From a virus, in IMG/VR virus record IMGVR_UViG_3300025146_000015, positions 1 to 60,672 of that record: a DNA stretch of 60,672 nt. One strand, 5' to 3'. Both the position numbers and the translations under genes were made by a program. Below are positions 4,083 to 52,914 of this stretch, piece after piece; within the stretch, counting starts at the first letter, position 1; the number at the start of each line of letters is the position of its first letter. Below the pieces are notes generated by a model. That model searched no databases. It was not told the origin of the DNA and saw only the letters and a list, made by a program, of their open reading frames with translations.

Positions 4083-4348
4083 CACCCGCTGGTCCGACCG
4101 GGGTCACTGTCGCGACGTCCCTTGTTCGCGACGGCGTGGACCAGCGGCTCCTCCGGGCCAGGCGCGAGGACGGTAAGACGCACGCGGCCCACACGCTCGT
4201 CAACGTCTACACCGAGATGCTGCGGCAGATCTGTAGGGACTACTCCGGGCTACCGGACTGCCGCACGCTGACGCTGGGCGAGATACGATTCTTCTACGAA
4301 GGTCTTCGACCAGAACTCAAAGCAGCCACTAAGCCAAGGAAGAAGTAG
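4079..4348 (+). CDS. Frameshift extension of the tail assembly chaperone (gpT-like)
   Basis: 89 codons in the -1 frame, giving a fusion of about 248 residues with the upstream frame. It has no ATG and no good ribosome site; the only start candidate is GTG 4136. The C-terminus (SGLPDCRTLTLGEIRFFYEGL, split here as the readable core LTLGEIRFFYEGL) is the pattern of chaperone C-terminal domains. It should bind tube subunits while the N-terminal part binds the tape measure. Confidence 0.75.
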   Translation: MAPAGPTGVTVATSLVRDGVDQRLLRARREDGKTHAAHTLVNVYTEMLRQICRDYSGLPDCRTLTLGEIRFFYEGLRPELKAATKPRKK

Positions 4349-30960: not shown

Positions 30961-31452
30961 TCACCGGGGCGGCGGGGCATCAAGCGGCCCCGTCTGGCAG
31001 ATCCTTCCTGCTTCGGACCGGCATTCGGCCAACATCGCGTGTTCGCGCTGAGCCCTCCGGAGCGACTTCTGGAGTTCGTTGGCCACACCAGCCGAGAACA
31101 GGTCCCGCATCTCGGAGGTACGCGCTTGGATCGAATCGAATTCCGTGCGGTCAATCCTTCCACGGGCCCTGGCAATCCTGGCCTGCTTCGCGATGAGATG
31201 ACACTGTTGAGCCCACAGGTACTCGTCGGCTTCTGGATCGGTCAAGATCCGAATCCCGAGACCCTCGACTTTCGCCACCAGTTCCTCGCAGTTGTCCCAT
31301 ATGGCTCCACGAAGCCGCATGAGTTCGAGCTGGAAGCGTCTCGGGTTCTCCGACGCCTTGAACCCGACGATGTCCTCGGCGTCGCTCTGGTTGATGAACT
31401 GTCCCTTCTGGAGGGTCGAGTAATCGAGAGGATGTAGTTTCGAAACGTCCAT
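30961..31452 (-). CDS. Hypothetical helical protein
   Basis: 163 residues, ATG 31452 preceded by AGGAG and a 5-bp stem-loop (31471-31483). It starts MDVSKLHPLDYSTLQKGQFIN and continues as charged helices (IDRTEFDSIQARTSEMRDLF), suggesting a DNA- or protein-binding helical bundle. A longer in-frame reading upstream is repeat DNA and was not used. Function unknown. Confidence 0.55.
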   Translation of the reverse strand: MDVSKLHPLDYSTLQKGQFINQSDAEDIVGFKASENPRRFQLELMRLRGAIWDNCEELVAKVEGLGIRILTDPEADEYLWAQQCHLIAKQARIARARGRIDRTEFDSIQARTSEMRDLFSAGVANELQKSLRRAQREHAMLAECRSEAGRICQTGPLDAPPPR

Positions 31453-31548
31453 CGTGTGTCTCCTATTGATGCCCCAAAGGGGCCCCTGCCTTGCCATGCC
31501 CAGCCCGGCCATCCACACCTCGACGCGCGTTGGCCCGCCTAGCCTCGG

Positions 31549-31591
31549 GCCCTCCCGCTGGAATCGAACCAGCGTGCAACCATTGGAGGGC
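31549..31591 (-). ncRNA. 43-nt tRNA-minihelix-like RNA element A
   Basis: On the minus strand, GCCCTCC (31591-31585) pairs with GGAGGGC (31555-31549). A 10-nt linker AATGGTTGCA follows the first strand, then a 6-bp hairpin with the T-loop sequence TTCGATT. This equals a tRNA acceptor stem stacked on a T-arm with the D and anticodon arms replaced by the linker. There is no CCA and no anticodon. Element B has the same length, loop and linker. Confidence 0.6.
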
Positions 31592-31672
31592 TTGTCCAAA
31601 CCTTGCCTTGCCCTTCCGCGCCGGGACTTGCCATGCACTGCCGAACCGAGAATGTACCGAGCCCAGCCATGG

Positions 31673-31715
31673 GCACGCCGCCGGGAATCGAACCCGGCGT
31701 ACGACCATCGCGTGC
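31673..31715 (-). ncRNA. 43-nt tRNA-minihelix-like RNA element B
   Basis: GCACGC (31715-31710) pairs with GCGTGC (31678-31673). Linker GATGGTCGTA (10 nt) then leads to a 7-bp hairpin closing the same loop, TTCGATT. Relative to element A the outer helix is one bp shorter and the hairpin one longer, so both have 13 bp and 43 nt. Nearly every stem pair differs yet pairing is kept, which supports a selected RNA structure. Confidence 0.6.
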
Positions 31716-31789
31716 TGTTCATCCAAGCCATGCCCTGCCGAGCCTCGCCTCGCCTGGCCCCGTATGGCCTCGGCTCACCATGCCATGCC

Positions 31790-32353
31790 TCACTCGACCG
31801 TGAACCTTCCGTATCGCGGTCGAAAATCTCCAACGCCAACCCTGGACCCCGCCGCGATCATCGCCTCGCGGGCTTGCTCCGGGTTGAGAATCTCCTCATC
31901 CACCTGCAGCGTCACCTTGCATGACCACGACCGGAAGATTGGTCGAGCTCGCATGATGCGCTGCCTCTGTTGCGCGACCGTTCGGTAGTCACAGAATCGA
32001 CCGTCGGCGTACAACTTCTTGATGTCCTTAGGACCGTCGTACTCGAGAGGAAAGAACGCCTGGTCACAGTAGACGGCGGCGCTCGCTTCCTTCCCGAGCT
32101 TCGCCTTGCGAGCTCCCTGAACGATGGTGGCCAGAATGACGTCGGCCGGAAGGGAAGGGTGGCCCTGTTCGTCGACGTAGAGCCCGCCACGCCATTCTAG
32201 TTCCTTGATCGCCATCAACGTCTCTTCGGTCTTGTTCTTGCCCTTCGCGATCTTCGACTTTTCCCGAGTGATTGGATCCGTCGGGTCAGCGAGACGCGCG
32301 TTGTGCATGAGAAGAGGCGCTACGCCTGTTAGCTTCAGATTGACTGTCTTCAT
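31790..32353 (-). CDS. Conserved phage protein of unknown function, RAMP-like features
   Basis: 187 residues, ATG 32353 with AAGGAG upstream. It begins VNLKLTGVAPLLMHNARLADP, has a KTEETLMAIKELEW..GLYVDEQGHPSLPADV middle (core GLYVDEQGH), and ends RARPIFRSW...GVGDFRPRYGRFTVE. The Gly-rich C-terminal motif and the opening beta strand recall Cas7/RAMP-like RNA-binding folds, but that is only a pattern impression. It lies between two structured non-coding stretches. Confidence 0.55.
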   Translation of the reverse strand: MKTVNLKLTGVAPLLMHNARLADPTDPITREKSKIAKGKNKTEETLMAIKELEWRGGLYVDEQGHPSLPADVILATIVQGARKAKLGKEASAAVYCDQAFFPLEYDGPKDIKKLYADGRFCDYRTVAQQRQRIMRARPIFRSWSCKVTLQVDEEILNPEQAREAMIAAGSRVGVGDFRPRYGRFTVE

Positions 32354-32363
32354 GATGTTCTCC

Positions 32364-32379
32364 TTCCCCCGAAGGGGAA
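32364..32379 (-). promoter_or_regulatory. UUCG-tetraloop leader hairpin
   Basis: On the minus strand TTCCCC, TTCG, GGGGAA forms a very stable C(UUCG)G-closed hairpin, followed at once by GGAGAACATC and the ATG at 32353. It could protect the 5' end of a processed message or control ribosome access. Confidence 0.6.
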
Positions 32380-32442
32380 TCCTTGCCTCGCCCAATCCGG
32401 CCTCGCTCGAACCGCTCTGCCTGCCAGTTGGGGGTTTCCTAA

Positions 32443-32509
32443 CCTCGCCATGCCATGCCATGCCTCGCCGAGCCGTGCCCTGACCAACCCGGCCGCGCCG
32501 CGCCCAGCC
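32443..32509 (-). repeat. GGCNN pentamer array
   Basis: Seven consecutive pentamers (minus strand GGCAC GGCTC GGCGA GGCAT GGCAT GGCAT GGCGA) at 32443-32480, with a further short run at 32490-32509. The surrounding 32,354-32,582 contains no gene. Same repeat type as at 31,483-31,791. Confidence 0.6.
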
Positions 32510-32575
32510 TTGAAGCGGGCGCCGTTGGTGCGACTGTCATGGCGTTCACAAATCAGCGACGCCCGCTTCAAGGCT
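32506..32575. repeat. 16-bp perfect inverted repeat with 38-nt loop
   Basis: 32506-32521 (AGCCTTGAAGCGGGCG) is the exact complement of 32560-32575. The loop of 38 bases is mixed-composition. It starts just after the stop of the zinc-ribbon gene. No T-run follows on either strand, so it is not a plain terminator. It may be a structured RNA or a protein-binding site. Confidence 0.6.
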
Positions 32576-35454: not shown

Positions 35455-36555
35455 TCACTGTCCTCCTGAGACTCGCTTGCTGACGAGTCGGTAGCTGGTC
35501 TTCCTGGTCACGGCGCCCGCGGTGTCGAGCGCCGCGTCAAGCTCTCGGACGGACGCCGCTCCTTGCCCTCTGGATGCCCGCTTCCGCACGATGTCCTCGG
35601 CTTTACTGAGACTGACGTCCACGCATTGCGCGAACTCCTTGTCGCCGAACCCATGTGATTCTAGCACTGGGAACGCCTTCAGGGGATCGAGTTCTCGCGG
35701 ATGCGTACCCTCGAGGGTGAGTCGGTGGTCGGATCCCACGACGTCGCCGGTGGCAACGACAAGGTCTCGGACCACTTGCTGCGCAGCCTTCGCGTACCGC
35801 TCGACCAACTTGGCCGTGTCGAGCAGGGAGATCACCTGATCGGGTGTCATGGCGGCGAGCTGATCCGCGGCGTTGCCAGGCACGAAGGCCTCGACGGAGC
35901 GACGCACCATCGCTCGCGCGGCCGGGCACGACGCCGTGCGCTGGCACCATTGGCAGTGCGATCCGGTGGTGTAGACTCCGTTCCAGTCGACGACCACCGA
36001 CGCCAGATCGTCAAGCCATTCGTGGGCCCCGCGCTGGCCCATCGTGTAGCTCTCGATCTCCTGGTCGCGGACCCACAGGAGCGTGCTGGTGACCTGCGTC
36101 AGTTCGGGGTGCTGGTATAGGACGAGGGACGCATACGTCTTCAGTTGCGCGGAGTAGTCGGAGTCTTTGCGGCCAAACTTCCAATCGCCTACGCGGGCGA
36201 TCGACCCACCGATCGACAGGATGTCGGCGTGCCCGGTGACGACGATGCCGCCGGTCTCGTAGCGCAGAGGGACCTCGGTCATCGCGTTCGGAAAGCTCTC
36301 CTCGACCTGTCGCCAAAGCTTGGTTGCAAGCGCGCAGAGAGTCCGGAGCTCCTTGTCTTCGGGCAAGGTGTCCCACGGGATGCTGCCGGTTTGGACGAGC
36401 ACTGCCGCTGCCGCGTGCGCCGCGGTGCCCATGTCGGCCGCGTTGCTGTCCTGGTCGATCAGTAGCTCGCTGGGCTCCGGGTAGAGGCTGCCGGCGCAGC
36501 GCATGATCTGCGGAGTCGCCGAGGCGCGAATGTGGATGGTGCGTGGTGTTTCCAT
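35455..36555 (-). CDS. PD-(D/E)XK exonuclease (RecB/DUF2800-like)
   Basis: 366 residues. The nuclease core is present: VVTGHADILSIGGSIARVGDWKFG (Asp and the DxK-type pair), then AQLKTYASLVL with the Gln motif. A C-terminal CQWC...CPAA cluster suggests an Fe-S type knuckle as in Cas4/AddB families. With the annealing protein next door it should resect double-strand ends. Confidence 0.75.
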   Translation of the reverse strand: METPRTIHIRASATPQIMRCAGSLYPEPSELLIDQDSNAADMGTAAHAAAAVLVQTGSIPWDTLPEDKELRTLCALATKLWRQVEESFPNAMTEVPLRYETGGIVVTGHADILSIGGSIARVGDWKFGRKDSDYSAQLKTYASLVLYQHPELTQVTSTLLWVRDQEIESYTMGQRGAHEWLDDLASVVVDWNGVYTTGSHCQWCQRTASCPAARAMVRRSVEAFVPGNAADQLAAMTPDQVISLLDTAKLVERYAKAAQQVVRDLVVATGDVVGSDHRLTLEGTHPRELDPLKAFPVLESHGFGDKEFAQCVDVSLSKAEDIVRKRASRGQGAASVRELDAALDTAGAVTRKTSYRLVSKRVSGGQ

Positions 36556-39291: not shown

Positions 39292-39462
39292 TTACGCCGC
39301 TCGCTGAACGAGCGGGAACTGGTAAATCCTCGCCCCCCGCGGGGTCGGGTCGGGTAGCTGCGGGGGCTCACTCTCTCGTCCCTGCGGTCCCTGATACTGT
39401 TCGACAGTGACGGTCTCGATCATGATGATCGCGACTCGCACCGTCGTCTTGGTGCGCGACAT
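39292..39462 (-). CDS. Small protein, first gene of the leftward operon
   Basis: 56 residues from ATG 39462, which has AGGAGG at ideal spacing. It starts MSRTKTTVRVAIIMIETVTVEQYQ. An in-frame ATG at 39606 lies 5 bases past the PL -10 and could give a leaderless 104-residue form, but its extra part is Pro/Ala-rich and less protein-like. Function unknown. Confidence 0.45.
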   Translation of the reverse strand: MSRTKTTVRVAIIMIETVTVEQYQGPQGRESEPPQLPDPTPRGARIYQFPLVQRAA

Positions 39463-39610
39463 CTGGTCCTCCTGTTGGTGGTATGGTGTGGGCCCCTCGA
39501 CCGCTCGAGCCGCCGCGTCCTGGCGCTGGTGCCAGCCAGCCGGTATCGGCGAGTCCCCAGGCATGGCGGTGGCGCTGGGTGAGCTCTGCGGGGTGCGGGG
39601 TGCCATCGCT

Positions 39611-46163: not shown

Positions 46164-46199
46164 ATTTCCGGGGCAATCCCGGGGCAACGATCTCTGGCG

Positions 46200-46255
46200 T
46201 GGTGCGAAGGGCGGGACTTGAACCCGCACGGACTATCCGTCCACTAGAACCTGAA
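46200..46255 (-). other. attP core: 3' part of a tRNA-Leu (CAG) gene
   Basis: On the minus strand the 56 bases read from the anticodon loop (TTCAGGT) through a 5-bp class II variable arm, the T-arm GCGGG-TTCAAGT-CCCGC, acceptor strand CCTTCGC, A and CCA. The 5' half of the tRNA is absent, and the bases upstream break the anticodon stem, so it is not a working tRNA. It marks the host attB as a tRNA-Leu gene. TTCCGGGGCA direct repeats at about 46167 and 46339 may be arm sites. Confidence 0.85.
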
Positions 46256-46386
46256 AGTAGCGAAACACGGGTAATCTGGCCAACGGCTGAGGCTGGGGGT
46301 TCGCAGTTCTCAGCTGGATTCTGCAGTGGGCAGCAGGGTTTCCGGGGCAGCCCCAGAAACTCCGAGTGGGCCCTCTCCTCAGCGGC

Positions 46387-51982: not shown

Positions 51983-52914
51983 TCACGATCAAAGAGGAGT
52001 TCATCCGCTGCGACAAGCTTCGTCGAGCGGTCAAGCTTGGTGGTCCAGCCGTGGGGTTGGTCTGGTTGGCCCTGAAGACCTACGTGTCCGAACACCTGAC
52101 CGACGGATTCGTTCCTGTAGACGATGTAGACGGTCTTGTAGACGGTCTTGTAGACGCAAGGTGTAGACGCCGATGCATCGACGCTCTGGTCTCATGTGGT
52201 CGTCTGCTTGCCGACGGTGGGCGCGGATCTGGTCTCGTGGACCGCGTCGAGCATGGCCTACGGCTCCATGATTACCTCGAACATGCAGACGATGCTGAGT
52301 ACGAGCTGAACAGAAGAAGACTCCGATCAGAGCGCCAGAAGAAGTGGCGCAGGGCCAAACAGCAAAGAGAGATTGATGCGTCAAACAAGCTTGGCCAACA
52401 ACCAAATGTAGACGATGTAGACGCGTCTACAGTAGACGATGTAGACGCGTCTCCCTCGTGCGCGCGTACGGGGGCGCCCGCGTCCCCAGCCCAGCCCAGC
52501 CCAGCCCAGCCCAGCCAAACCGAGTTAGATCTAGATCAGGATCCCCCCTATGGTCCCCCAGTGGGGGACGCTCCAGCCAAGGTCCGGCCACGGAAGAGCC
52601 CGAGGTCCAAACTCCCCGAGGGGTGGCAACCGAACGAGGGACACCGATCGCTAGCCACCGAAGTTGGTGTCGAGCTAGCGGCCGAGGTTCCCAAGTTCGT
52701 GGATCATGCGGCAGCCACCGACCGACGGATGGCTGATTGGGATGCTGCGTTTCGGACATGGCTCCGCAACGCGAAGGATTTTCACCGAGGTGGGTTGCTA
52801 CCCTCTGGGGCGAGGGATTCGAGGGCGGACGCGCAGATGCGACGACAGCTCGCGCACATCGAAGACTTGAGACGACAGGAGGCAAGAGAACGTGACCAAG
52901 CTGCAAGCAAGTGA
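51979..52914 (+). CDS. Replication initiator (lambda O-like)
   Basis: 311 residues from ATG 51979 (GGAGG upstream). The N-terminus is a winged-helix type (EEFIRCDKLRRAVKLGGPAV, LRLHDYLEHADDAEY). A linker holds the iteron-encoded VDDVD/VDGLVDG repeats and a Pro/Ala tract, and the C-terminus (LPEGWQPNEGHRSLATEVG, DWDAAFRTWLRNA) is the helicase-loader-binding domain. The origin lies inside the gene, as in lambda O. Confidence 0.7.
   Translation: MITIKEEFIRCDKLRRAVKLGGPAVGLVWLALKTYVSEHLTDGFVPVDDVDGLVDGLVDARCRRRCIDALVSCGRLLADGGRGSGLVDRVEHGLRLHDYLEHADDAEYELNRRRLRSERQKKWRRAKQQREIDASNKLGQQPNVDDVDASTVDDVDASPSCARTGAPASPAQPSPAQPSQTELDLDQDPPYGPPVGDAPAKVRPRKSPRSKLPEGWQPNEGHRSLATEVGVELAAEVPKFVDHAAATDRRMADWDAAFRTWLRNAKDFHRGGLLPSGARDSRADAQMRRQLAHIEDLRRQEARERDQAASK
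52117..52447 (+). other. Probable replication origin with GTAGACG iterons
   Basis: GTAGACG occurs at 52117, 52126, 52138, 52150 and 52163, then at 52408, 52417, 52432 and 52441, with the inverse CGTCTAC at 52424. Spacing of 9 to 13 bp within the first cluster suggests side-by-side protein binding. An AT-richer stretch (about 52520-52540) and six CCAGC units (52486-52515) follow. All lie inside the initiator gene. Confidence 0.6.
52486..52515 (+). repeat. Six tandem CCAGC pentamers
   Basis: Six perfect copies encode the Pro-Ala-Gln-Pro-Ser tract of the initiator linker. Next to the iterons, it may help unwinding or only space the two protein domains. Confidence 0.6.

Follow-up and report, generated by a model that had tools for sequence, protein, structure and literature searches.

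Plant mitochondrial t-elements are tRNA-like structures inside messages, thought to set mRNA ends via tRNA-processing enzymes, and a protein RNase P, PRORP1, cuts them (PMC4125048). Minimal hairpins of acceptor stem, T-stem and T-loop suffice for RNase P cleavage in vitro, which confirms what an earlier note on this DNA had said of such substrates (PMC11143913), and RNase P measures the acceptor/T stack from the elbow (PMC4919913). The C4 precursor of P1/P7 is a processed phage RNA cited in PMC11143913. The mascRNA / MEN-beta tRNA-like RNA (RF01684) likewise has an acceptor stem, a T-arm and a shrunken D-like part with no normal anticodon arm. The SAS and ESAS of Cluster K mycobacteriophages, and start-associated repeats like them, are repeated, oriented, and located in short gaps just upstream of starts; as to RNA pairing by ESAS, the authors saw little to support it (PMC3203893, PMC7302621). 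Here we compare these systems with two phage elements, A and B, which are members of a widespread and so far unnamed phage RNA family.

The window analysed spans an entire IMG/VR virus record (60,672 bp). A and B share a 337-nt gap whose flanking genes, 31790-32353 and 30961-31452, are both on the minus strand; 74 nt separate B from the stop and 97 nt separate A from the start, and both elements lie within a repeat array. On re-reading the sequence, the coordinates, minus strand, 43-nt length, TTCGATT loop and 13 bp of both elements were as the earlier note gave them. A reads GCCCTCC AATGGTTGCA CGCTGG TTCGATT CCAGCG GGAGGGC (7 + 6 bp, 13 bp in total), and B reads GCACGC GATGGTCGTA CGCCGGG TTCGATT CCCGGCG GCGTGC (6 + 7 bp, 13 bp in total). 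Their parts and immediate surroundings are as follows.

31549-31591, minus strand: element A, whole 43-nt tRNA-like element (sequence; model R1, 56.9 bits)
31585-31591, pairing with 31549-31555, minus strand: outer (acceptor-like) helix of A, 5′ strand GCCCTCC (sequence; 7 covarying pairs in the family)
31575-31584, minus strand: linker of A, AATGGTTGCA, a D-loop-like micro-hairpin with A1-T7 and A2-T6 around TGG (N1-N7 covariation)
31556-31574, minus strand: T-arm of A, stem CGCTGG/CCAGCG, loop TTCGATT at 31562-31568 (sequence, family alignment)
31673-31715, minus strand: element B, whole 43-nt tRNA-like element (sequence; model R1, 40.3 bits)
31700-31709, minus strand: linker of B, GATGGTCGTA, the G1-C7 version of the micro-hairpin (linker pair counts)
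31679-31699, minus strand: T-arm of B, stem CGCCGGG/CCCGGCG, loop TTCGATT at 31686-31692 (sequence, alignment A2)
31670-31672, minus strand: CCA directly 3′ of the helix of B (sequence; NCCA is rare in the family, 9/226)
31471-31483, minus strand: hairpin GCCCC-TTT-GGGGC, 3′ of A and ahead of the next ribosome-binding site (sequence)
31460-31464, minus strand: ribosome-binding site AGGAG of the gene downstream of A (sequence)
30961-31452, minus strand: gene downstream of A, no assigned function (ORF, AGGAG before ATG)

A descriptor specifying a T-loop, a T-stem of 5-7 bp, 12 contiguous bp and a linker of 8-14 matches twice in the 60.7-kb window against 0.03 expected per first-order Markov shuffle, and model R1 found no further copies there, matching A and B and nothing else at E < 1. 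Minimum free energies are −21.9 kcal/mol for A and −22.3 kcal/mol for B, with mean pair probabilities in a 360-nt context of 0.93 and 0.60, respectively. The earlier note had both elements lacking D arm, anticodon and CCA; there is indeed no anticodon arm or D-stem, only the 10-nt linker, although B does carry CCA (31672-31670). Directly after the 13-bp helix B has CCA (C-CCA) and A has CCG (C-CCG), and the CCA of B is placed as it would be after a tRNA-His-like G-1:C73 end.

Over the window ARAGORN called 0 tRNA genes, the Rfam tRNA model was likewise unmatched, and an Rfam 15 scan returned no family at gathering threshold. With relaxed thresholds, mascRNA-menRNA was the only match of sensible shape on the right strand; it was rejected, B scoring 20.4 bits against a gathering threshold of 42.5, as was Plastid-ycf2 (25.4 bits against a 65.7-bit threshold, on the opposite strand). 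Megablast of the central 24 kb revealed no near relative among the phages compared, and the gene downstream of A had no family match at E 0.001. Elsewhere in the window, ~46190-46260 on the minus strand resembles the 3′ part of a tRNA-Leu gene with no 5′ half (T-arm GCGGG TTCAAGT CCCGC, end CCTTCGCACCA), possibly a phage attachment site core.

A search pattern built from the linker and T-loop of A and B, ATGGTYGYA N(3-7) GGTTCGATTCC, matched 112 stretches in viral contigs but only 22 sites in 257 Gb of bacterial and archaeal genomes, both raw counts, with no correction for how large the viral collection is. Because these scans were for exact patterns, the family size is a lower bound. The working set comprises 226 elements made non-redundant by sequence rather than by phylogeny, none of them in Rfam 15, and we found no description of such phage elements in the open-licence literature or Rfam 15. 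Of the models built from family alignments (R1 and R2), R1 retrieves additional divergent copies on a single strand, as many as 10 in one contig; copies keep to one strand at about one per gap and cluster along the gene strand, with a single detectable copy in many contigs. Carriers include the Mycobacterium phages Fowlmouth (8 copies), Cuke (7), SWU2 and LittleE, Gordonia phages, and prophages. Six of the bacterial and archaeal loci were checked for neighbours: three are Lactobacillus loci where phage genes adjoin the element (terminase, portal, HNH), the Dysgonomonas element adjoins a phage-type transposase, the Lachnospiraceae element is near a replication initiator, and the neighbour-gene search at the Actinomadura locus gave no match. 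In Dysgonomonas sp. 216 (L130, 2967-3014, minus strand) the element is immediately upstream of the transposase gene (882-2951), and the family thus seems to reach transposable phages too.

Nearly all viral copies have an outer helix and T-stem that sum to 11-13 bp, with unrelated stem sequences. Covariation was assessed in two ungapped alignments (A1 and A2) against shuffles and slid partners. In A1, 95% of cells are paired, with 262 two-sided changes against 73 in shuffles (score 1.008 against 0.18), bearing out the remark that stem bases differ while pairing is kept; A2 has 89 two-sided changes against 26. The first alignments were fixed at the linker, the T-loop and the two adjoining GC pairs, and covariation in the remaining pairs is independent of that choice. 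G-U pairs occur in family stems, and the orthologous elements of Fowlmouth and Cuke differ by compensatory changes. Among the 226 elements a 12th pair is present in 70% (30% are without it) and a 13th in 39%, so that the 13-bp total reported for A and B is correct for these two while its outermost pair is not general. The stack ends near 12 bp across the 226 elements; ~12 bp is also the acceptor/T stack length of tRNA, and of the tRNA features tested both the T-loop and this ~12-bp stack are present. Covariation and copies outside this genome, whose absence the earlier note had listed among its refuting conditions, were both found.

The 10-nt linker is a 2-bp micro-hairpin and not an unstructured spacer. 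Pairs were counted in 149 elements from a scan without any linker-sequence requirement: positions 1 and 7 of RATGGTY are AT in 101, GC in 20, CG in 9 and TA in 5 (135/149, against 14 others), and at positions 2 and 6, 135/149 have A-T or T-A. By exact pattern, the structured GATGGTC and AATGGTT are common, while GATGGTT occurs 0 times and AATGGTC once. The length given earlier for the linker stands; its reading as a plain linker gives way to a structured, D-loop-like micro-hairpin whose bases 1 and 7 covary across the family. The GG in its loop is invariant. In tRNA, G18-G19 of the D-loop dock on the T-loop, and by analogy the micro-hairpin GG could dock in the same way. Longer elements, in which an additional arm separates micro-hairpin and T-arm, lie in gaps of Fowlmouth (L117: 36857-36978, 37932-38133 and 41027-41209) and Cuke (L118: 34526-34724 and 37973-38095); there are few copies, some ending ACCA, and they are intermediates between the minimal element and tRNA.

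Across the 226 non-redundant elements the helix is followed by N-C-(A/T/G)-A. The base two past the helix, C74, is unpaired (the base opposite is G in 3/140), as if it must stay free in the manner of RNase P substrates. The family has the acceptor, T-stem and T-loop domain of bacterial RNase P substrates and generally lacks their 3′ RCCA, NCCA being found in 9/226 elements. Bacterial RNase P favours RCCA. Neither U-1 nor G+1 is enriched at the elements, a mild argument against RNase P as the sole enzyme. RNase Z also uses the acceptor/T part of tRNA and is hindered by CCA, in keeping with the missing second C in the family.

With a crude gene caller, on which the tight spacing figures partly rest, elements sit a median of 10 nt after the upstream stop and 36 nt before the next Shine-Dalgarno start, and both neighbouring genes are on the same strand in 94/139 cases. 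In annotated Mycobacterium phage SWU2 an element fills a 94-nt gap. Most gaps in the small-gene region of Fowlmouth and Cuke have the order stop, element, second hairpin, Shine-Dalgarno sequence, ATG; the descriptor finds an element in 19/27 of their gaps of 70-260 nt, and 14/19 elements begin 5-10 nt after the stop. The window has the same order of element, hairpin, Shine-Dalgarno sequence and ATG downstream of A. These are tRNA-like folds in untranslated gaps on the message strand, as expected of a t-element-like structure. A few annotated coding starts fall inside tRNA-like elements, namely those of Gordonia phage Trine gp40 (L142, 3590-3866) and of gp47 (35844-35891) and gp56 (39462-39480) in the Fowlmouth record; because they begin inside elements, the true starts probably lie further downstream. 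For Trine gp40, no part of the protein before residue 111 is covered by the family match.

We lean towards reading the elements as cis-acting tRNA mimics that would serve as punctuation in polycistronic phage mRNA, recognised by RNase P and/or RNase Z and analogous to t-elements. With an 11-13 bp stack, canonical T-loop, GG micro-hairpin and no anticodon arm, they imitate the elbow-to-acceptor half of a tRNA. Host RNase P may cut the 5′ end and/or RNase Z the 3′ end. Such cutting would separate messages so that each ends shortly after its stop codon and the following one begins ahead of its own ribosome-binding site, and it would leave structured, exonuclease-resistant ends. Starting from the observed structure, covariation, copy number, gene-strand intergenic place and free C, we infer the cis role and the cleavage because hairpins suffice for RNase P, RNase P measures the stack, t-elements are cut, and the missing second C fits RNase Z. 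Against punctuation stand the rarity of RCCA (9/226), the 30% of elements without a 12th pair, the looser placement of A and B, which are not tightly at a stop, and the frequent absence of an element from relatives of phrog_4652, the family of the gene upstream of B. Of the options raised earlier (tRNA mimic, mRNA processing signal or decoy), the acceptor/T-arm reading and the processing signal are well supported by covariation, copies elsewhere and the stop-to-ribosome-binding-site location, with cleavage putative.

The position between stop and ribosome-binding site would also suit an uncut leader or spacer, a folded mimic that blocks exonucleases, insulates translation of neighbouring genes or acts as an operator for a tRNA-binding protein. 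We judge this somewhat unlikely: the stacks are very stable and a second hairpin comes next in Fowlmouth and Cuke, yet a plain hairpin would be enough for blocking, leaving the elbow-like T-loop, micro-hairpin and free C unneeded. Trans-acting decoys, in which released RNAs of ~43 nt would tie up tRNA-binding proteins of the host or antiphage tRNA nucleases, are more doubtful. Elbow mimicry is complete and some phages have several copies per genome, but anticodon nucleases would find no anticodon to act on, only one copy is detectable in many contigs, and strict intergenic placement with one copy per gap suggests a cis role. A terminator was rejected, no U-run following the elements.

The earlier note overlooked the micro-hairpin, the CCA of B, a pentamer-phased array around the elements and a Cas7-like neighbour. 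The last two are located as follows.

31790-32353, minus strand: phrog_4652 gene upstream of B (PHROGs, E 1.2e-50; predicted Cas7/Csm3-like (RAMP) fold)
31485-31545, minus strand: pentamer-phased (GGCNN, minus strand) array segment after A (period-5 scan)
31592-31660, minus strand: pentamer-phased array segment between B and A (period-5 scan)
31716-31800, minus strand: pentamer-phased array segment before B (period-5 scan)
32415-32525, minus strand: pentamer-phased array segment upstream of the phrog_4652 gene (period-5 scan)

By wider bounds the array regions are 31453-31800 and 32354-32525. An AlphaFold model of phrog_4652 (pLDDT 93.9), computed from an alignment made only of proteins of the window and of further loci, is predicted to resemble Csm3/Cas7 backbone proteins; among the PDB matches listed are backbone proteins of the CRISPR Csm, Cmr and type VII systems, the others being related RAMP proteins (best E 8.2e-5, but TM-scores of only ~0.44-0.55 and ~10% identity). 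There was no match to phrog_4652 in Pfam or PADLOC. All 12 of the intergenic segments tested near the gene (12/12) have excess identity at lag 5. Among 80 phrog_4652 loci gathered with an alignment-based search of viral contigs, 72 have pentamer-phased arrays, G-rich on the gene strand in 150/154, with strand-biased GGCNN, GGTNN or AGTNN motifs (window; L406-L485; L141-L146; L122; L058; L089). Ten of the 80 also have tRNA-like elements; every one is on the gene strand, and almost every one adjoins an array segment. The association of array, element and phrog_4652 is recurrent, and phrog_5926 often follows phrog_4652.

Relatives of phrog_4652 with nearby elements occur in L122, L058, LittleE, Trine, MakoManhole and others; in Felixounavirus wV8 and Pseudomonas phage Medea1 phrog_4652 is present and no element was found. 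In Escherichia phage wV8 (L141), annotated 58-bp repeats DR_4 (2759-2816 and 4152-4209) flank the phrog_4652 gene pair and adjoin pentamer-phased arrays, and no tRNA-like element was found in that repeat region. L122, a contig from a ‘Bathyarchaeota’ genome bin, is probably a phage contig, perhaps wrongly binned, because it carries phrog_4652, four tRNA-like elements, phrog_5926 and Sak4-like and nuclease-like ORFs. Two kinds of pentamer match were set aside: 52460-52540 of the window is a coding Pro-Ala-Gln-type repeat, and matches at loci lacking phrog_4652, mostly short and AT-rich, resemble background.

In the window, the order array, B, array, A, array suggests that the elements may also serve to cut up an array transcript. 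An improbable extension, drawn from the arrays at 72/80 loci, their G-rich gene strand (150/154) and the elements beside arrays at 10/80, is that in this phage and its relatives the elements would be maturation signals of a non-coding RNA array, its transcript alternating GGCNN pentamer-phased segments with elements and host tRNA enzymes cutting out units that the Cas7/Csm3-like phrog_4652 protein, often with phrog_5926, may bind as a phage-borne RNA-loaded filament system unlike CRISPR. The palindromic DNA and, in the window, the unusual repeat array around A and B might instead mark a cruciform, recombination or replication site, which we consider very improbable, as clustered copies keep to the gene strand, the conservation of loop and linker is asymmetric and tRNA-specific, and stems contain G-U pairs. 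Decayed tRNA genes or attachment-site remnants are scarcely credible: T-arm and acceptor do resemble a tRNA 3′ half, but covariation and multicopy clusters rule this out, pairing is intact despite divergent sequences, the linker hairpin is not found in tRNA, and the real tRNA-Leu-like 3′ piece of the window looks quite different.

Punctuation of messages by tRNAs is textbook knowledge for mitochondria, and we found no description of it as a general phage device in the open-licence literature. If the elements are cut as proposed, many phages would use host tRNA-processing enzymes to organise their messages. The elements would then also give studies of RNase P, RNase Z and tRNA-modifying enzymes a set of very small natural tRNA-elbow mimics, and they could serve as a marker when annotators label phage gaps that are at present blank or wrongly called as coding. 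Hosts include Mycobacterium smegmatis, which is easy to handle in the laboratory (Fowlmouth, Cuke, SWU2, LittleE), making direct testing possible.

Among known systems, the likeness to CRISPR type III Csm/Cmr concerns the predicted neighbour protein only: at the phrog_4652 locus no other cas genes were recognised, and the array has a pentamer phase in place of identical repeats and unique spacers. A CRISPR array was likewise rejected for the elements themselves, with no identical direct repeats, A and B differing, and degenerate pentamer-phased GGCNN stretches between them. SAS and ESAS are conserved DNA sequence motifs with no T-loop described (PMC3203893, PMC7302621); their conserved 13-bp or 17-bp repeats are absent here, and stem sequences of the phage elements vary freely. 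The mascRNA-menRNA structures belong to the 3′ ends of animal lncRNAs and have no position or conserved linker in common with the phage family. RNase P model substrates and the C4 precursor are synthetic or single phage RNAs and not a repeated intergenic family. The t-elements, to which the proposed punctuation is likened, are mitochondrial tRNA-like folds, whereas the phage family is uniform at ~43 nt, its cleavage is putative, and its micro-hairpin replaces the D and anticodon arms.
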